From Acidimicrobiales bacterium (lineage in GTDB: Bacteria > Actinomycetota > Acidimicrobiia > Acidimicrobiales > AC-9), in the NCBI GenBank assembly GCA_036270875.1, contig DATBBR010000128.1, forward strand, positions 1 through 43,441: a DNA stretch of 43,441 nucleotides. The letters are read 5' to 3'. The translations under genes and the position numbers were made by a program. Shown one piece after another: positions 908 through 6,205 of this stretch; within the stretch, counting starts at the first letter, position 1; each line of letters opens with the position of its first letter. Below the pieces are notes generated by a model, which was given only the letters and a program-made list of their open reading frames with translations, searched no databases and was not told the DNA's origin.

Positions 908-1199
908 CTCGTAACCGTCCCCATCGGCCCCACTCCCTATCCACCCTGCTCCCGCACCGACCGACGATGCAGGAGCGACCAACCTCGACATACCCCGATC
1001 ACGACCCCCGTCGATCACTAACGTAGCGGCGCTTCACAGCGCAGGGCTCCGAGCGGCCGGGATGCCTACCCTCGAACACAGTCGATACGGGGCCCAGGAG
1101 GCGACGTTTGCCCACCCGCTGCGGACCGGCGCGCCCAGAACCACCCGCCGTACGACCCGGGGACGGTACCCTGCGGTCCGTAGGACAAGGGGGGGCGAT
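908..1199. other. Divergent intergenic region
   Basis: This region separates the minus-strand DUF948/alaS genes from the plus-strand lipoprotein gene. No convincing gene is seen. A TACCCT hexamer at 1167-1172 and the AAGGGGGG ribosome binding site just before 1200 are the only signals noted for the plus-strand gene. Confidence 0.4.
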
Positions 1200-1784
1200 G
1201 TGCGGACCCGGCGATGTCTGGCAGCGGCGGTAACGAGCAGCCTGCTTCTCGCTGCCTGTGGAGCGAGCCACGGCAACGCCGGCCAAGCCAAGGCCAGCCA
1301 GTCCAAGACCAGCTCGGCCCAGGCCAATCCAGCACCGCCCAGCCCGTGTCTGCCCGGCTCTTGCGGAGCCAGCGTGAACGGCACGAGCACCACCGCGCCC
1401 GCGAGCGGGTCCCACGCCCCGTCCGCCAAGGCCCTTCAGGCATGGGGCGCCGCGCACGTCGCGACGATTCAGTCGTTGAGCGACGAGGCGTCGCATCTTC
1501 TCGGCGGTGCCGGCAGCGCCGATCAGGTGAAGCTCGCGTGCAGCGCGCTGGGCTCGCACGCACAAGCGGCCCTGTCGTTGCCGCCGCCGCCCGACGCCGC
1601 GACGGCGAGCCAACTGCAGACCGGTCTGGCCGACCTCAGTCAGCTCGCCCGAGACTGCGCGGCGGCCTTCGCAACCGGTGATGCGACAGCCTCTTCTCGG
1701 TTGATATATGAAGCAAACCAGGGAACGACTGCGCTCAGCCAGGTGATCCAGACCGTCAATGGTGCCGGTCGCGGCACGTCTTAG
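1200..1784 (+). CDS. Predicted exported lipoprotein
   Basis: The 194-residue protein uses a GTG start preceded by a strong AAGGGGGG ribosome binding site. The N-terminus is a lipoprotein signal: RTRR, a hydrophobic core, then the lipobox LLAAC with the lipidated cysteine at residue 20. A low-complexity linker rich in Ala/Ser/Gln/Thr/Pro follows (about 21-80). The C-terminal half (about 85-190) is Ala/Leu-rich and looks helical, with a few Cys residues that could pair. No family is recognised. It is the first gene of a plus-strand block of surface proteins that interrupts the minus-strand housekeeping array. Probable location is the outer face of the cell membrane. Confidence 0.75.
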   Translation: MRTRRCLAAAVTSSLLLAACGASHGNAGQAKASQSKTSSAQANPAPPSPCLPGSCGASVNGTSTTAPASGSHAPSAKALQAWGAAHVATIQSLSDEASHLLGGAGSADQVKLACSALGSHAQAALSLPPPPDAATASQLQTGLADLSQLARDCAAAFATGDATASSRLIYEANQGTTALSQVIQTVNGAGRGTS

Positions 1785-1923
1785 CTGGTCCAGATCCTCT
1801 CCGACGCCCGTATCCAAAACCTGCTATGAGCAGCTCGTCACCGCTCTCCTGACGATGACAGCCGGCGGCCACAATCAGTCCGGTATTTGTGGCGCACACG
1901 GACCCATTGTCTAGAACCAGGGC

Positions 1924-1951
1924 TTGCCAGATTCGACGATTGCTTTAAAGT
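1924..1951 (+). promoter_or_regulatory. Putative promoter of the first LGFP gene
   Basis: TTGCCA (1924-1929), a 16-base spacer, then TAAAGT (1946-1951), which fits the actinobacterial TANNNT -10 pattern. The same arrangement with the same spacing is found before the tandem paralog (3832-3859), within a longer conserved leader. This conservation is the main support. Confidence 0.5.
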
Positions 1952-2024
1952 GAGCCTTGATCCTTGTGACTCTCTGCTGCTTTGACGCGGCAGGAGGGTC
2001 AGACACCGAGGGCGGAGTGGGTGG
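1924..2024 (+). repeat. Duplicated promoter/leader block, copy 1
   Basis: This block is similar along its length to 3832-3931. Shared stretches include TTGCCAGATTCG, ATCCTTGTGACTCTCTGCTGC (near 1960-1980) and the CAGACACCGAGGGCGGAGTG run before the start codon. It shows that the tandem duplication that made the two LGFP genes carried the upstream control region. Confidence 0.7.
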
Positions 2025-3554
2025 ATGCGAGTATTTTCTCGCGCCAGGGGCGGCGCAGTTGCAGCAATAGTCGTCATCATTCTCATCACGGGGGGCACCG
2101 CAGGCGTCGCCTTGGGCGAGCTCGCCGCGACACAGCCCACCGCCGACCAGCCACAGCCCGGCCGTGTACAGCCCGGCCACGTATCGAGCAAGGGACCGAC
2201 CAAGGCGACTCTCGCGTCCGTCGCATCGCCGTGCGCACTGGGGACTAGCGGTGCGGCCACCGGCTGGAGCATGCCTCTGCCGGCGCAGTATCTCGTGAAC
2301 GGCGCTGTCGACCAGGGTGTCGACTACTCCGCCCCAGGGGGAACGCCGGAGTGCGCCATGGGAGACGGGACAATCGTGGGCGAGGGCGGACCAGGGCTCG
2401 GAGGCTTCGGGCCGAACGCTCCTCTCTTGCACATCGAAGACGGGCCGCTCGCCGGTAGATATGTGTACTACGGGCATGCTGGGCCGGACCTCGTACCGGT
2501 GGGCGCACACGTATCGAATGGCCAGCAGATCTCTATTGTCGGCTTCGGGATCGTCGGCCTCTCGACGGGCCCCCATATTGAGATCGGCTTCTGGAATGTC
2601 ATAAGCACGAACCCACTGGCGGGATCACCAGGATCATTCGGTGCCGGCCAGCCGATGCTGGACTACATCAACTCGGCGGCTCCAAGCTCGAACCCGAACT
2701 GCACCGTGTTCGGCGGTCATGCGGTCTGCGGGGCAATCAGGGACAAGTATGTGTCCCTCGGAGGACCTTTCCTGCTCGGCAACCCCATCACAGACGAGAG
2801 CCCGACCCCAGATGGGGTCGGAAGGTTCAACTACTTCGCCAACGGTGTGGCCATCTACTGGACTCCGGCCACCGGGGCGTGGTCCATCGGCGGTGCCATC
2901 CTCACCCACTGGGCAGCCATGGGCTGGGAGCGCAGCGTCCTCGGCTACCCGGTCACCGACGAGACCGGTACGCCCGACGGGATCGGGCGCTTCAACCACT
3001 TCCTCAACGGGGGCTCGATCTACTGGACACCCGCCACCCAGGCGCATGAGGTGCATGGCGCGATCCAAGCCAAGTGGGCCAGCGCAGGGTGGGAGCGCAG
3101 CGTCCTCGGCTACCCGGTCACTGACGAGGGCACCACTCCCAACACGATCGGGCGCTTCAACTACTTCAGCGGCCACGGAGCCATCTACTGGACCGGCCCA
3201 ACCGGGGCGCAGTCGATCCACGGGGCCATCCTCGACAAGTGGGCCAGCATGGGCTGGGAGAACAGCGTGGTCGGCTTTCCGACGACAGACGAGTCCGGCA
3301 CGCCCGATGGGATCGGGCGCTTCAACCACTTCAGCCTCGGCGGCTCGGTCTACTGGACGCCCGCGACCCAGGCGCACGAGGTGCATGGAGCGATCCGAGA
3401 CAAGTGGGCCAGCCTCGGCTGGGAGCGCAGCTGTCTCGGCTACCCCGTGAGCGACGAGCTCGCCATCACGGGTGGCCGGCAGAGCAACTTCCAGCAGGGC
3501 GTGATCACATTCGACGCCACGTCCCTGCAGGCGACATCCAGCTGCGGCGCCTGA
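2025..3554 (+). CDS. Secreted M23-like domain plus LGFP-repeat protein (copy 1)
   Basis: 509 residues. An N-terminal signal or anchor helix covers about 11-30. An M23-like (lysostaphin-type) beta domain covers about 80-215, with the landmarks GVDYSAPGGTPECA, YYGHAGPDLVPVG and STGPHIEIGF. Five LGFP repeats follow (about 236-500, period 55 residues; motif LGYPVTDE, GRFNHF, IYWTP, HGAI-KW). LGFP repeats occur in actinobacterial cell-wall-bound proteins. The canonical M23 zinc ligands are altered: the first His is Asp96 and the second His of HxH is Glu186; Asp100, His151 and His184 remain. It may therefore bind metal differently or only bind wall glycans. ATG 2025 lies just after GGAGTGGGTGG. It is a tandem paralog of the next gene. 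Confidence 0.85.
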   Translation: MRVFSRARGGAVAAIVVIILITGGTAGVALGELAATQPTADQPQPGRVQPGHVSSKGPTKATLASVASPCALGTSGAATGWSMPLPAQYLVNGAVDQGVDYSAPGGTPECAMGDGTIVGEGGPGLGGFGPNAPLLHIEDGPLAGRYVYYGHAGPDLVPVGAHVSNGQQISIVGFGIVGLSTGPHIEIGFWNVISTNPLAGSPGSFGAGQPMLDYINSAAPSSNPNCTVFGGHAVCGAIRDKYVSLGGPFLLGNPITDESPTPDGVGRFNYFANGVAIYWTPATGAWSIGGAILTHWAAMGWERSVLGYPVTDETGTPDGIGRFNHFLNGGSIYWTPATQAHEVHGAIQAKWASAGWERSVLGYPVTDEGTTPNTIGRFNYFSGHGAIYWTGPTGAQSIHGAILDKWASMGWENSVVGFPTTDESGTPDGIGRFNHFSLGGSVYWTPATQAHEVHGAIRDKWASLGWERSCLGYPVSDELAITGGRQSNFQQGVITFDATSLQATSSCGA

Positions 3555-3831
3555 GACCCTTCGGCTCGCTCCCATCCGGTCGGTGCTGAGTCGTCTCCGA
3601 GGGGCCATTCGAGCTCAGCGTGCTGGGCCACACCGGATTCGTCCCTCAACCGGGTGAACCGGCAGTCAGTGCCAGCCGTTCGCACCGCGTGCTGGCCGGT
3701 CCTGATCCTGTCCAGCCGATACGGAACACTCGCGCTGACCAGGCTCGCAACGCCCTCGTCGCCGCAAGCCGGGCCGTTCACGATCACTCCCCCGTCCGTG
3801 GGACACGCCGACAAATGCCGCGAACCAGCTC
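3555..3831. other. Intergenic spacer between the LGFP paralogs
   Basis: No supported gene. Short open frames cross the region but show no family match and no ribosome binding site. The last bases pass into the promoter and leader block shared with the upstream paralog. Confidence 0.5.
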
Positions 3832-3859
3832 TTGCCAGATTCGGCGAATCCTTTAGGGT
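3832..3859 (+). promoter_or_regulatory. Putative promoter of the second LGFP gene
   Basis: TTGCCA (3832-3837), a 16-base spacer and TAGGGT (3854-3859). It aligns with the element before copy 1 and sits at nearly the same distance from the ATG (72 versus 73 bases). The following leader, including CTTGTGACTCTCTGCTGC and CAGACACCGAGGGCGGAG, is also conserved. Confidence 0.5.
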
Positions 3860-3931
3860 AACCGCAATCCTTGTGACTCTCTGCTGCGTTGTCGCGGCCG
3901 CGGGTCAGACACCGAGGGCGGAGTGGGGGGT
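3832..3931 (+). repeat. Duplicated promoter/leader block, copy 2
   Basis: Counterpart of 1924-2024. Differences cluster around the spacer and a few positions before the ribosome binding site; the -35-like box, the central leader and the SD-proximal run are retained. Confidence 0.7.
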
Positions 3932-5434
3932 ATGCGAGTAGTCGCTCGCGCTAGGGGCAGCGCAGTTGCCGTAATCGGGCTGATCATGCTCGTCTCGGGG
4001 GGCATCGCGGGTGTCGCCCTCGGTGAGCTCGCGGCGACGCAGTCTCCCGCCGAGCACGCACAGGCCGGCCACGGGTCGAGCAGAGGACCGATCAAAGCGA
4101 CCCTTGCGTCTGTCGGGTCGCCGTGTGGGCTCGGGAGCTTTGGTGCGGCCAACGGCTGGGGAATGCCGCTGCCGGCCGGTTACCTGGGCGGCGGCAGCGT
4201 CGACCAGGGAGTCGACTACGCCGCACCGGGTGGAACGCCGGAGTGCGCCATGGGCGACGGCACGATCATCGGCGAAGGAGGACCGGGGCTCGGCGGCTTC
4301 GGCCCGTGGGCGCCGATCCTTCAGATCGACGACGGGCCGCTCGCCGGTCGGGCCGTCTACTACGGCCATGCCGGACCCGACCTGGTCCCGGTCGGCGCCC
4401 ACGTCTCCAGCGGCCAGCAGATCACCGAGGTGGGCTACGGCATCGTCGGGCTCTCCACCGGACCACACCTGGAGATCGGGTTCTACCCTCCGGGCCCCTT
4501 CGGTGCCGGCCAGGCGATGCTGAACTACATCAACTCGACTGGCCCCAGCGACAACTCGAGTTGCACCGTCTGGGGCGGCCACCAGGTCTGCGGGGCGATC
4601 CGGGACAAGTATCTCGCCCTCGGCGGTGGCTTCGTGCTCGGCGCCCCCGTCACGAACGAATTGCCGACTCCGGACGGGGTCGGACGGTTCAACCACTTCT
4701 CCAACGGCTGGTCGATCTACTGGACTCCGTTCACGGGGGCATGGTCGATCCACGGCGCCATCAGGGACCATTGGGCGGCCATGGGCTGGGAGCGCAGCGT
4801 CCTCGGCTATCCGGTTACCGACGAGAGCCCGACGCCGGACAGGATCGGGCGCTTCAACCACTTCCTCAACGCCGGCTCGATCTACTGGACGCCGGCCACC
4901 CAAGCGCATGCGATCCACGGGGCGATCCGGGCCAAGTGGGCCAGCATGGGTTGGGAGCGCGGCGTCCTCGGCTATCCAGTTACCGACGAGGGCGTCACAC
5001 CCAACAAGATCGGGCGCTACAACTTCTTCAGAGGCCACGGGGCCATCTACTGGACCGGACCCACCGGTGCCTGGTCGATCCGGGGGGCAATCCTCGACAA
5101 GTGGGCCAGCATGGGCTGGGAGACCAGCGTGCTCGGCTTTCCCGTCACCGACGAGCACGTTGCTCCGGACAAGATCGGACTGGCCAATCACTTCTCCTCA
5201 AACCACAGTCTGGGCAACGTCGACGGCTCGATCTACTGGACTCCCACCACGGGCGCCCACGAGGTGCACGGCATCATCAGGGCGAAATGGTTCAGCCTCG
5301 GCTCGGATCACAGCTGTCTGGGCTATCCGACCAGCGACCAGACGAAGACGCCGACCGGCTCGCAGAACACGTTCCAGCGCGGCGTGATCACCGTGGTCGC
5401 CCCGGCTGTCCAGACGGCCGTCTCCAGCTGCTGA
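3932..5434 (+). CDS. Secreted M23-like domain plus LGFP-repeat protein (copy 2)
   Basis: 500 residues from ATG 3932, chosen because MRVVARARG aligns with the start of copy 1; an in-frame GTG at 3923 is an alternative. Architecture is the same: signal or anchor helix (11-30), M23-like domain (about 75-205) and five LGFP repeats to the C-terminus. The ligand changes are the same as in copy 1: Asp91 replaces the first His and Glu181 replaces the second His of HxH, while Asp95, His146 and His179 remain. The last repeats carry a small insertion (SSNHSLGNVDG region) not present in copy 1. Identity extends upstream of the start, so this is a tandem duplication including the promoter. A hairpin lies 52 bases after the stop. 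Confidence 0.85.
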   Translation: MRVVARARGSAVAVIGLIMLVSGGIAGVALGELAATQSPAEHAQAGHGSSRGPIKATLASVGSPCGLGSFGAANGWGMPLPAGYLGGGSVDQGVDYAAPGGTPECAMGDGTIIGEGGPGLGGFGPWAPILQIDDGPLAGRAVYYGHAGPDLVPVGAHVSSGQQITEVGYGIVGLSTGPHLEIGFYPPGPFGAGQAMLNYINSTGPSDNSSCTVWGGHQVCGAIRDKYLALGGGFVLGAPVTNELPTPDGVGRFNHFSNGWSIYWTPFTGAWSIHGAIRDHWAAMGWERSVLGYPVTDESPTPDRIGRFNHFLNAGSIYWTPATQAHAIHGAIRAKWASMGWERGVLGYPVTDEGVTPNKIGRYNFFRGHGAIYWTGPTGAWSIRGAILDKWASMGWETSVLGFPVTDEHVAPDKIGLANHFSSNHSLGNVDGSIYWTPTTGAHEVHGIIRAKWFSLGSDHSCLGYPTSDQTKTPTGSQNTFQRGVITVVAPAVQTAVSSC

Positions 5435-5486: not shown

Positions 5487-5517
5487 CTCACCCATCCGTG
5501 TCACCCGGATGGGTGAG
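5487..5517 (+). terminator. Perfect 12-bp hairpin after the LGFP genes
   Basis: CTCACCCATCCG (5487-5498) pairs perfectly with CGGATGGGTGAG (5506-5517) around a 7-base loop. It lies 52 bases past the stop of the second LGFP gene. No T-run follows, as is common for actinobacterial terminators. It could instead be an operator for the following gene. Confidence 0.6.
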
Positions 5518-5623
5518 GCGCGATAGCGCCACGCCCGCCGTCAGACGACGGAGCTCCCAAATTCGGCCTCATCGCCGCAGCGTGGGACAATCCCTGACAA
5601 TCACCGCACCACGCACGGAGACG

Positions 5624-6205
5624 ATGGACACACGTCAGAACGTCGACCTGAGCAGTCGCGTCCACGGCGAGGTACACGCTCGCGTGATCGCACGGAGCCA
5701 GGTACACGTTGGCGCCACTGCAACGAACACCGGTGAGCGAAAGCGACGACTGCATGTGCCGATCATCGTCGTCGCCGCTATCGCAATCATCGTTGGGCTT
5801 TCTCTCGGCCTGGGGCTGACCGGCGGCGCTGCGCAGAAGGTCCCGAGCGGCCGCCTCACCGGGTCGAGCGCCACAGCTCGCACACCTCAGACGGCGTCCA
5901 CACCATTCACCACCACGTCGGCTGCACCGTCCTCGGTCAGCCCGACGACGTCGACCACTCTCTCGACGTCGACTACCCGCGCTCATCCGTCAGCCAGGGC
6001 ACCGAGCGCCACCACCACGAGCACCACGTGGACGATGGGTCCTGGGGTGACGACACTATCTAGCGCACCGAAAACGTCGAGCCCACCTGCGATGTCGAGC
6101 CCACCGACGACCTCGAGCCCACCAACTCCCACGACGACGTCTTCGACCACGACCACCACGTCGACAACCACCCCGCCGACCACCTCGACAACCGAAGGCA
6201 GGTGA
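5624..6205 (+). CDS. Single-pass membrane protein with Ser/Thr/Pro-rich outer tail
   Basis: 193 residues from ATG 5624, with ACGGAG just upstream; an in-frame extension to 5498 would overlap the hairpin and is less likely. A hydrophilic N-terminus (1-42), rich in His/Arg/Val, is followed by one transmembrane helix (about 44-66, VPIIVVAAIAIIVGLSLGLGL). The long tail (about 67-193) is almost wholly Ser, Thr and Pro with runs such as TTTTTSTTTPPTTST. Such tails are typically extended, often glycosylated, wall-spanning stalks. The N-terminus before the helix has the alternating-valine look of a bactofilin-like edge but is too short to assign. Function unknown. It converges with rarA. Confidence 0.65.
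   Translation: MDTRQNVDLSSRVHGEVHARVIARSQVHVGATATNTGERKRRLHVPIIVVAAIAIIVGLSLGLGLTGGAAQKVPSGRLTGSSATARTPQTASTPFTTTSAAPSSVSPTTSTTLSTSTTRAHPSARAPSATTTSTTWTMGPGVTTLSSAPKTSSPPAMSSPPTTSSPPTPTTTSSTTTTTSTTTPPTTSTTEGR

Follow-up and report, generated by a model that had tools for sequence, protein, structure and literature searches.

The two adjacent genes at 2025-5434 of the 43,441-nucleotide stretch of Acidimicrobiales DNA analysed here (the window) raise the question of what an M23-like domain can do when both of its zinc-binding histidines have been replaced by acidic residues. The motifs HxxxD and HxH define the M23 peptidases, a family of zinc enzymes, and, to our knowledge, members without the zinc motif are usually taken as inactive. 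Under their bare profile name, Peptidase_M23, the proteins would be labelled zinc peptidases by automatic annotation. A group with acids in place of the zinc histidines and a fixed water-activating pair allows a direct test of whether the wall is cut with another metal, and either outcome, new metal chemistry or a new silent LytM class, would alter the reading of actinobacterial and phage genes.

The tandem genes and the fold of their M23-like domain

The gene pair consists of the following features:

1917..2024, forward strand: segment upstream of P0001, common to both genes, 83% identical to 3825-3931
2025..3554, forward strand: P0001, 509 aa, with an N-terminal hydrophobic segment, an M23-like domain and six LGFP stretches
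2310..2594, forward strand: M23-like domain of P0001, residues 96-190 (Pfam match)
3825..3931, forward strand: segment upstream of P0002, duplicate of 1917-2024
3932..5434, forward strand: P0002, 500 aa from the ATG at 3932, with the same layout as P0001
4202..4486, forward strand: M23-like domain of P0002 (Pfam match)

P0002 is numbered from the ATG at 3932 because this matches the start of P0001; the mechanical ORF begins at GTG 3923 and has 503 aa. The proteins are identical in 372 of 517 alignment columns, and the 107 bases 5' of the genes are 83% identical between the copies; judged by these alignments, the pair is a tandem duplication. In Protein PS1, LGFP repeats are joined to a different catalytic domain, not M23. 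The LGFP repeats of both window proteins (PF08310; 324.9 and 311.3 bits against a cut-off of 22, with six stretches per protein) match those of PS1 (PDB 6swz, 6sx4) with E values of 1.8e-29 and 3.1e-29, and the hydrophobic segment of P0001 was read by eye as a signal or anchor. P0001 and P0002 are secreted-looking members of a subfamily of M23/LytM fold, and the LGFP part would anchor them to the wall.

PF01551 (Peptidase_M23) matched P0001 with 29.8 bits and P0002 with 33.0 bits, both passing the Pfam cut-off of 28.7. The AlphaFold model of the window domain (pLDDT 85.0, pTM 0.83) had 51 PDB matches at E<=0.001, and the best 50 of the 51 are, by title or known identity, M23/LytM chains. The model superposed on lysostaphin (4lxc) with Z 14.2 and rmsd 2.9 over 124 residues, and on StM23 (9gy1) with Z 14.0 and rmsd 2.4 over 112 residues. 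The predicted fold of the domain is therefore that of M23/LytM, which bears out the M23 landmarks noticed in the first-pass annotation, where a fold unlike M23 had been named as refutation.

An Rfam search of the window gave zero matches at the gathering score. At a relaxed threshold, D12-methyl and mir-9191 appeared over 1700-4050, both sub-threshold, and were taken as chance.

Acidic residues at the zinc positions

In both proteins, the canonical HxxxD...HxH reads DxxxD...HxE, so that the zinc motif is lost and two of the three ligand residues are altered:

2310..2312, forward strand: D96 of P0001, in place of the first zinc His of HxxxD
2322..2324, forward strand: D100 of P0001, the kept Asp of HxxxD
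2475..2477, forward strand: H151 of P0001, equivalent of LytM His260
2574..2576, forward strand: H184 of P0001, first His of HxH, equivalent of LytM His291
2580..2582, forward strand: E186 of P0001, in place of the second (zinc) His of HxH
4202..4204, forward strand: D91 of P0002, in place of the first zinc His
4214..4216, forward strand: D95 of P0002, the kept Asp
4367..4369, forward strand: H146 of P0002, equivalent of LytM His260
4466..4468, forward strand: H179 of P0002, equivalent of LytM His291
4472..4474, forward strand: E181 of P0002, in place of the second (zinc) His of HxH

In the alignment with 9gy1 and LytM, gap-free in both motifs, D falls in the column of the first zinc His and E in that of the second HxH His. 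The replacements proposed in the first-pass annotation, Asp 96/91 and Glu 186/181, were confirmed in both copies, together with its observation that the Asp, His and catalytic-type His remain (D100/H151/H184 and D95/H146/H179). In the excerpted text of PMC4594094, His260 and His291 of LytM are the water-activating pair and alanine at either one abolishes activity; this pair is retained as H151/H184 in P0001 and H146/H179 in P0002. A register shift of E, through a two-residue deletion in HLHFE, was not favoured, since PHLHLG of a canonical domain (L096) aligns gap-free to PHLEIG and the second-shell site aligns to Gly, not to a displaced Glu.

Conservation of the site among relatives

Across 72 distinct homologous domains with a median pairwise identity of 56%, the five sites read Asp (72/72), Asp (71/72), His (72/72), His (72/72) and Glu (70/72), whereas the canonical set has His at both zinc-His positions in 65/65 domains, a purity that is partly circular because this set was sorted by motif. 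The scoring that defined the canonical set gave three motif classes, with zero scored domains outside them. With Asp in 72/72 and Glu in 70/72, the non-canonical site that the two copies were said to share goes beyond chance, and by these alignments the substitution is one that runs through a large family, beyond the two copies first noticed. Before counting, we dropped L021 (HxE segment deleted), a frame-split copy (C106, as L007/L060/L142) and identical or overlapping loci; L025, from a set of 18 loci, was an unrelated protein picked up by a short match. The newest 39 variant domains, gathered by profile score and not by motif, agreed at all five sites in 39/39, with a collecting profile that leans to variants because it was built from variant rows. 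This later profile listing gave more than 70 matches, of which only the domains readable in the fetched loci were counted (39 variant, 1 His-less).

Two members (L064 and L065) have Thr in place of Glu and keep both His, L065 with Ala in place of Asp as well; the His pair is therefore not strictly tied to the ligands. Among the 26 columns conserved at 97% or more, none is Lys or Arg, and three carboxylates without an invariant basic partner would favour a bound cation.

The dN/dS values of 10 pairs were 0.071-0.171, indicating purifying selection. That the domains are decaying relics within duplicated genes is extremely improbable and was rejected: a copy in the window's genome (G000:C106) runs across two frames, and the HxE segment is missing from L021, but dN/dS of 0.07-0.17 and the same residues in 72 domains, and at all five sites throughout the later 39, contradict decay. 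The first-pass annotation had argued against decay from two copies with the same change; its conclusion stands on the homologs and dN/dS, while the argument by itself carries little weight, as the two genes form a tandem duplication. Likewise, an artefact of recent duplication, possible for two copies alone, is excluded by the homologs. Because the same residues run through dozens of relatives, the acidic site looks redesigned, not broken, with activity predicted at most.

In the genome of the window, the seven PF01551 matches at E<=0.001, including the split one, are without exception members of the variant family, so that normal-HxH homologs, earlier named as possible counter-evidence, were not found among them. 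At E<=1, four more weak PF01551 pieces appeared, all under the cut-off, one being the remaining part of the frame-split gene. Two same-genus genomes each yielded one canonical M23 protein (L126, L127), of a different protein type and located on other contigs.

Possible functions of the altered domain

We lean, at somewhat under even probability, towards a wall peptidase of M23 descent that has kept the catalytic His pair and exchanged its zinc site for carboxylates that hold another cation. The zinc-binding His-Asp-His would have changed to Asp-Asp-Glu, most simply once, with loss of the second-shell Glu, and the two water-activating histidines would have stayed fixed through the ligand change. 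Instead of tightly bound zinc, the all-carboxylate triad may hold Ca, Mn, Mg or a loosely bound Zn; the held cation would polarise the scissile carbonyl, while water would be activated by the His pair. The domain, which the LGFP part would keep at the wall, could in this way still cut peptidoglycan cross-links. In favour of this reading, residues that could bind metal took the place of the zinc histidines, and the water-activating pair stayed.

It appears improbable that the domain is an ordinary M23 zinc enzyme in which D-D-E is tolerated as a ligand set, with weaker zinc binding and normal function. Its fold and His pair are as in LytM, and Asp and Glu serve as zinc ligands in other enzymes, but three carboxylates should bind zinc less tightly than H-D-H. 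LytM, lysostaphin, StM23 (9gy1) and EnpA resemble the variant in fold, in the Asp of HxxxD, in both water-activating histidines and in wall-binding companions, and differ from it in that the variant has Asp and Glu for the zinc histidines and Gly for the second-shell Glu; many variant members also differ from M23/LytM peptidases by a GPLAGR-type insert ahead of YYGH. The second-shell Glu, which according to the excerpted text of PMC8269130 bonds a zinc His in EnpA, is found in 57/65 canonical domains, and Gly stands there in 72/72 variant domains. This fixed Gly shows that the shell was remodelled, which speaks against the ordinary zinc enzyme, as does H. pylori Csd2, which carries one such ligand change and in the excerpted literature binds no zinc. 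Csd2 is like the variant in its acidic residue (Glu) at the first His and, in the same excerpts, keeps the second zinc His, unlike the variant with acids at both. Searches of the open-licence PMC literature gave no description of a D-D-E M23 variant.

The partners of the variant domain are LGFP, PG_binding_1 (L056 and L014), SLT (L018) or a PcsB-type coiled coil (L255). On metagenomic viral contigs, it occurs in four long tail-type proteins, one with SLT_3 (L082) and another with PhageMin_Tail (L084). The variant family resembles EnpA in tape-measure context; EnpA is described in part of PMC8269130 as a tape-measure, transglycosylase and M23 protein with an active M23 domain. Neither the window domain nor L084 matched isolate phage records. 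L117 matched 140 such records, of which 11 were inspected: four, read across the domain, are canonical; of the remaining seven, five carry the canonical site by profile alignment, and L214 and L216 have HxH but are cut before the first His.

The main rival, an appreciable possibility that we place clearly below even, is a catalytically silent LytM-type module that, like EnvC and NlpD, attaches to peptidoglycan or activates a partner hydrolase, with the acidic residues and the His pair kept for ligand or partner binding. SpoIIQ is a degenerate LytM factor. The non-catalytic EnvC also has a layout of coiled coil and LytM, and coiled-coil or LGFP companions suit a binding or regulatory role as well. 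Both zinc histidines are gone, and Csd2 and other substituted LytM domains are without zinc in the excerpted literature. EnvC, NlpD and Csd2 share with the variant family the M23 fold and an incomplete zinc motif. However, E. coli EnvC reads WVYSY and E. coli NlpD reads NDHRH at the five sites, and they therefore look different from the variant: EnvC has lost both and NlpD one of the catalytic-pair histidines, whereas the variant family keeps the pair in 72/72. Moreover, the first zinc His is always replaced by Asp (72/72), never by a neutral residue, and the domain is found in tail-type proteins of viruses, a setting in which an M23 part can be active, EnpA being an example.

The silent-module reading also draws on a His-less sister group, with no curated name seen, which keeps D, D and E and the M23 fold without the catalytic pair (17/17 rows, alignment A2); D-D-E can therefore persist without catalysis. 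In this group, the His of YGH is Glu (YxAE) and the other pair position varies; hhalign (98.9%, 36% identity) pairs its two Asp and the Glu of E-x-G-W with the D-D-E residues of the window family. PF01551 recognises 16/17 of its rows at E<=0.01, the lowest value being 1.3e-06, and one member scores 21.9 bits, below the 28.7 cut-off; the AlphaFold model of a member (pLDDT 93.9) has the M23 fold, with Z 12.9 to lysostaphin. Extending the preferred cation-site peptidase, it is conceivable, at clearly less than even probability, that the whole lineage left zinc, using D-D-E for a hard cation (Ca, Mn, Mg) in an actinobacterial and viral-tail wall-cutter, with the His-less sister non-catalytic and held by a cation.

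The variant domains form one group in trees from which the five site columns were excluded; long branches and an alignment of about 100 columns limit tree support. The first tree held 28/33 variant, 17/17 His-less and 35/65 canonical rows, and its bootstrap had not settled; the second held 72 variant, 18 His-less and 26/65 canonical rows. The canonical L096 stood with the His-less rows in the first tree (95/73) and with the canonical rows in the second.

Tandem genes and the fold of their M23-like domain

The two genes encode secreted-looking proteins, both of which exceed the Pfam M23 cut-off:

window 2025-3554, P0001, 509 residues, N-terminus judged hydrophobic by eye, plus a single M23-like domain and six LGFP stretches
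window 3932-5434, P0002, 500 residues, with the same layout, numbered from the ATG at 3932, which corresponds to the gene start of P0001

Five sites were compared, namely the first zinc His of HxxxD, its Asp, the equivalents of LytM His260 and His291, and the second His of HxH. They are D96, D100, H151, H184 and E186 in P0001 and D91, D95, H146, H179 and E181 in P0002, in exact agreement with the residues named in the first-pass annotation. The proteins are identical in 372 of 517 alignment columns and, judged from their sequences, the genes are a tandem duplication. Despite a coding dS of ~0.95 between the two M23 domains, the upstream segments (1917-2024 and 3825-3931; 107 bases) are 83% identical and may represent either a conserved control region or gene conversion. 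The 107-base segment had no further match at E<=0.01 in the window's own genome and two same-genus genomes, and neither segment matched Rfam. Just downstream, an ORF at 5498-6205 combines a hydrophobic stretch with an extended tail rich in Ser, Thr and Pro and, by eye, may encode a wall-spanning protein. LGFP proteins with other N-terminal parts occur in the genus (L061, L063, L068, L078 and L079, in G000, the own genome, and G001); by eye only, that part resembles a subtilisin/sedolisin-like peptidase in L063 and a glycoside hydrolase in L078.

The M23 fold proposed earlier was recovered by AlphaFold (pLDDT 85.0, pTM 0.83; the input alignment comprised 28 window and locus domains). Foldseek against the PDB gave 51 matches at E<=0.001 with StM23 9gy1 on top, and the 50 listed were all M23/LytM chains, as judged from their titles or from what is known of the entries. 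VIA-align gave Z 14.2 to lysostaphin 4lxc (rmsd 2.9, 124 residues) and Z 14.0 to 9gy1 (rmsd 2.4, 112 residues).

Conservation of the five sites

Domains were classed as variant (D-D-H-H-E, as in the window), canonical (HxxxD/HxH) or His-less (D-D-E, no His pair). The first locus search yielded 18 genome loci (14 window-like, three His-less and one unrelated), and the whole-protein search matched 10 of 59 genomes, part of these by LGFP only. Three viral contigs with the variant domain were found in one search and a fourth in another, and a repeat search returned the same four. Among 33 distinct variant domains, the five sites were conserved in 33, 32, 33, 33 and 31 domains, respectively. The exceptions are two related loci, possibly a second loss step within the family:

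2684-3094, minus strand, L064, GPHLTIGF, Thr for Glu, both catalytic-type His present
988-1398, minus strand, L065, GPHLTIGF and DQGVAY, Thr for Glu and Ala for Asp, both catalytic-type His present

A profile search of seven genomes and the order of one of them, where 35 of 201 genomes matched at E<=1e-20, added 39 variant domains with all five sites intact (39/39), the profile being built on variant rows and hence biased towards variant members. Altogether, the sites are Asp 72/72, Asp 71/72, His 72/72, His 72/72 and Glu 70/72, at a median pairwise identity of 0.56 (minimum 0.38), which confirms the non-canonical metal site noticed in both window copies. The canonical set has His in 65/65 at each zinc-His position, a partly circular count since the set was sorted by motif; no domain scored with it fell outside the three motif classes. 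Two residues past the second HxH His, Glu stands in 57/65 canonical and Gly in 72/72 variant domains; in EnpA the equivalent Glu bonds the zinc His (PMC8269130). None of the 26 columns conserved at >=97% in variant domains is Lys/Arg. One own-genome copy (L007/L060, G000:C106) is split across two frames and L021 (G001:C191) lacks the HxE segment; both are likely pseudogenes or assembly errors.

Relatives and range

In trees built without the five site columns, the variant domains form one group (99/97 with 28 rows; 92 with 72 rows), which the His-less group (17 and 18 rows) adjoins. Both together form one side of a branch in the 72-row tree (88, not starred), and the AU test did not reject this grouping (p 0.431), the trees being limited by long branches and few columns. 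Profile alignment places D, D and E of the two groups in register (98.9%, 36% identity).

His-less members: L022-L024, L071, L141, L143, L149-L151, L193-L199, L204, L249

In the His-less group, the His of YGH is replaced by Glu and the second position of the pair carries no conserved His; four acidic residues are invariant in it, namely D, D, the E of YxAE and that of ExGW. The M23 fold was also predicted for it (pLDDT 93.9; Z 12.9 to lysostaphin); no curated family name was seen, its Pfam matches being to PF01551 only (best E 1.3e-06). The dN/dS ratio was 0.071-0.171 in ten pairs. One canonical protein is a candidate picture of the variant family's ancestor, although its place in the tree is unstable:

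1417-2259, minus strand, L096, canonical H-D-H-HxH protein, HLHLGWY and a TGPL insert resembling that of the variant family

P0001 and P0002 are M23-like by fold and ancestry; they lack the zinc motif and are therefore not filed as M23 zinc peptidases.

The rarity check suggested earlier, run as a DNA pattern for GPHxExG(F/Y), found only the own genome (seven occurrences) among 396 sampled genomes of the phylum; the pattern would miss members with a different last residue, as in many of the 39 later domains. When these 396 genomes were searched with a profile, the 29 top-scoring loci from genomes other than the window's own (L086-L114) were all canonical. Within the window's order, variant members above 80 bits occurred in 5 of 248 genomes (G000, G001, G002, G474 and G546). 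The records behind the first locus search are titled as MAGs of Actinobacteria, Solirubrobacterales, Acidimicrobiaceae or Actinomycetes. Normal HxH homologs in the same genome would have spoken against the first-pass interpretation; in the own genome, which is 97% complete, the seven matches to PF01551 at E<=0.001 are all variant, one split across two frames, although incomplete assembly could hide a canonical copy. Four weaker pieces, all below the cut-off, appeared at E<=1, one of them being the remainder of the frame-split copy. One canonical M23 was found in each of the two same-genus genomes (L126, L127).

Domain company and possible activity

Variant domains are fused to SLT (L018), PG_binding_1 (L056, L014), a PcsB-type coiled coil (L255) and, in the window, LGFP. 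The proteins that contain them on the four viral contigs are long and of tail type. PhageMin_Tail and strong matches to tape-measure PHROGs occur in L084, a tape-measure PHROG match in L117, and an SLT_3 domain with no tape-measure match in L082; L082 and its close relative L083 are called tail-type from length and layout.

In LytM, the metal polarises the carbonyl. Water is activated by His260 and His291, and the enzyme is inactive when one of them is lost (PMC4594094). Exactly these equivalents are fixed in the variant family while the zinc His are replaced by Asp and Glu. A cation might then be held by carboxylates in place of the HxxxD/HxH zinc, with the His pair retained for water activation. 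A catalytically silent domain is a somewhat doubtful but substantial alternative. Four observations speak against a working enzyme: no metal is bound by Csd2, in which Glu replaces the first His (PMC5053510), LytM domains with substitutions crystallise without zinc (PMC8416486), D-D-E persists in the His-less sister group although the catalytic pair is gone, and L064 and L065 keep the pair without the Glu. However, the pair is fixed in the variant family, unlike in the silent LytM factors EnvC (WVYSY at the five sites) and NlpD (NDHRH). Because of this difference, the fusion to wall-enzyme domains and the occurrence in tail-type proteins of viral contigs, the reading we prefer, at slightly less than an even prospect, is an active peptidase whose cation is held by carboxylates, by analogy with LytM. 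The earlier interpretation stands in part, for the M23 fold, the non-canonical site shared by both copies and the case against decay. Neighbouring pairs of variant genes were also seen in other genomes (L265, L267, L268 and L274), with open frames <100 bases apart.
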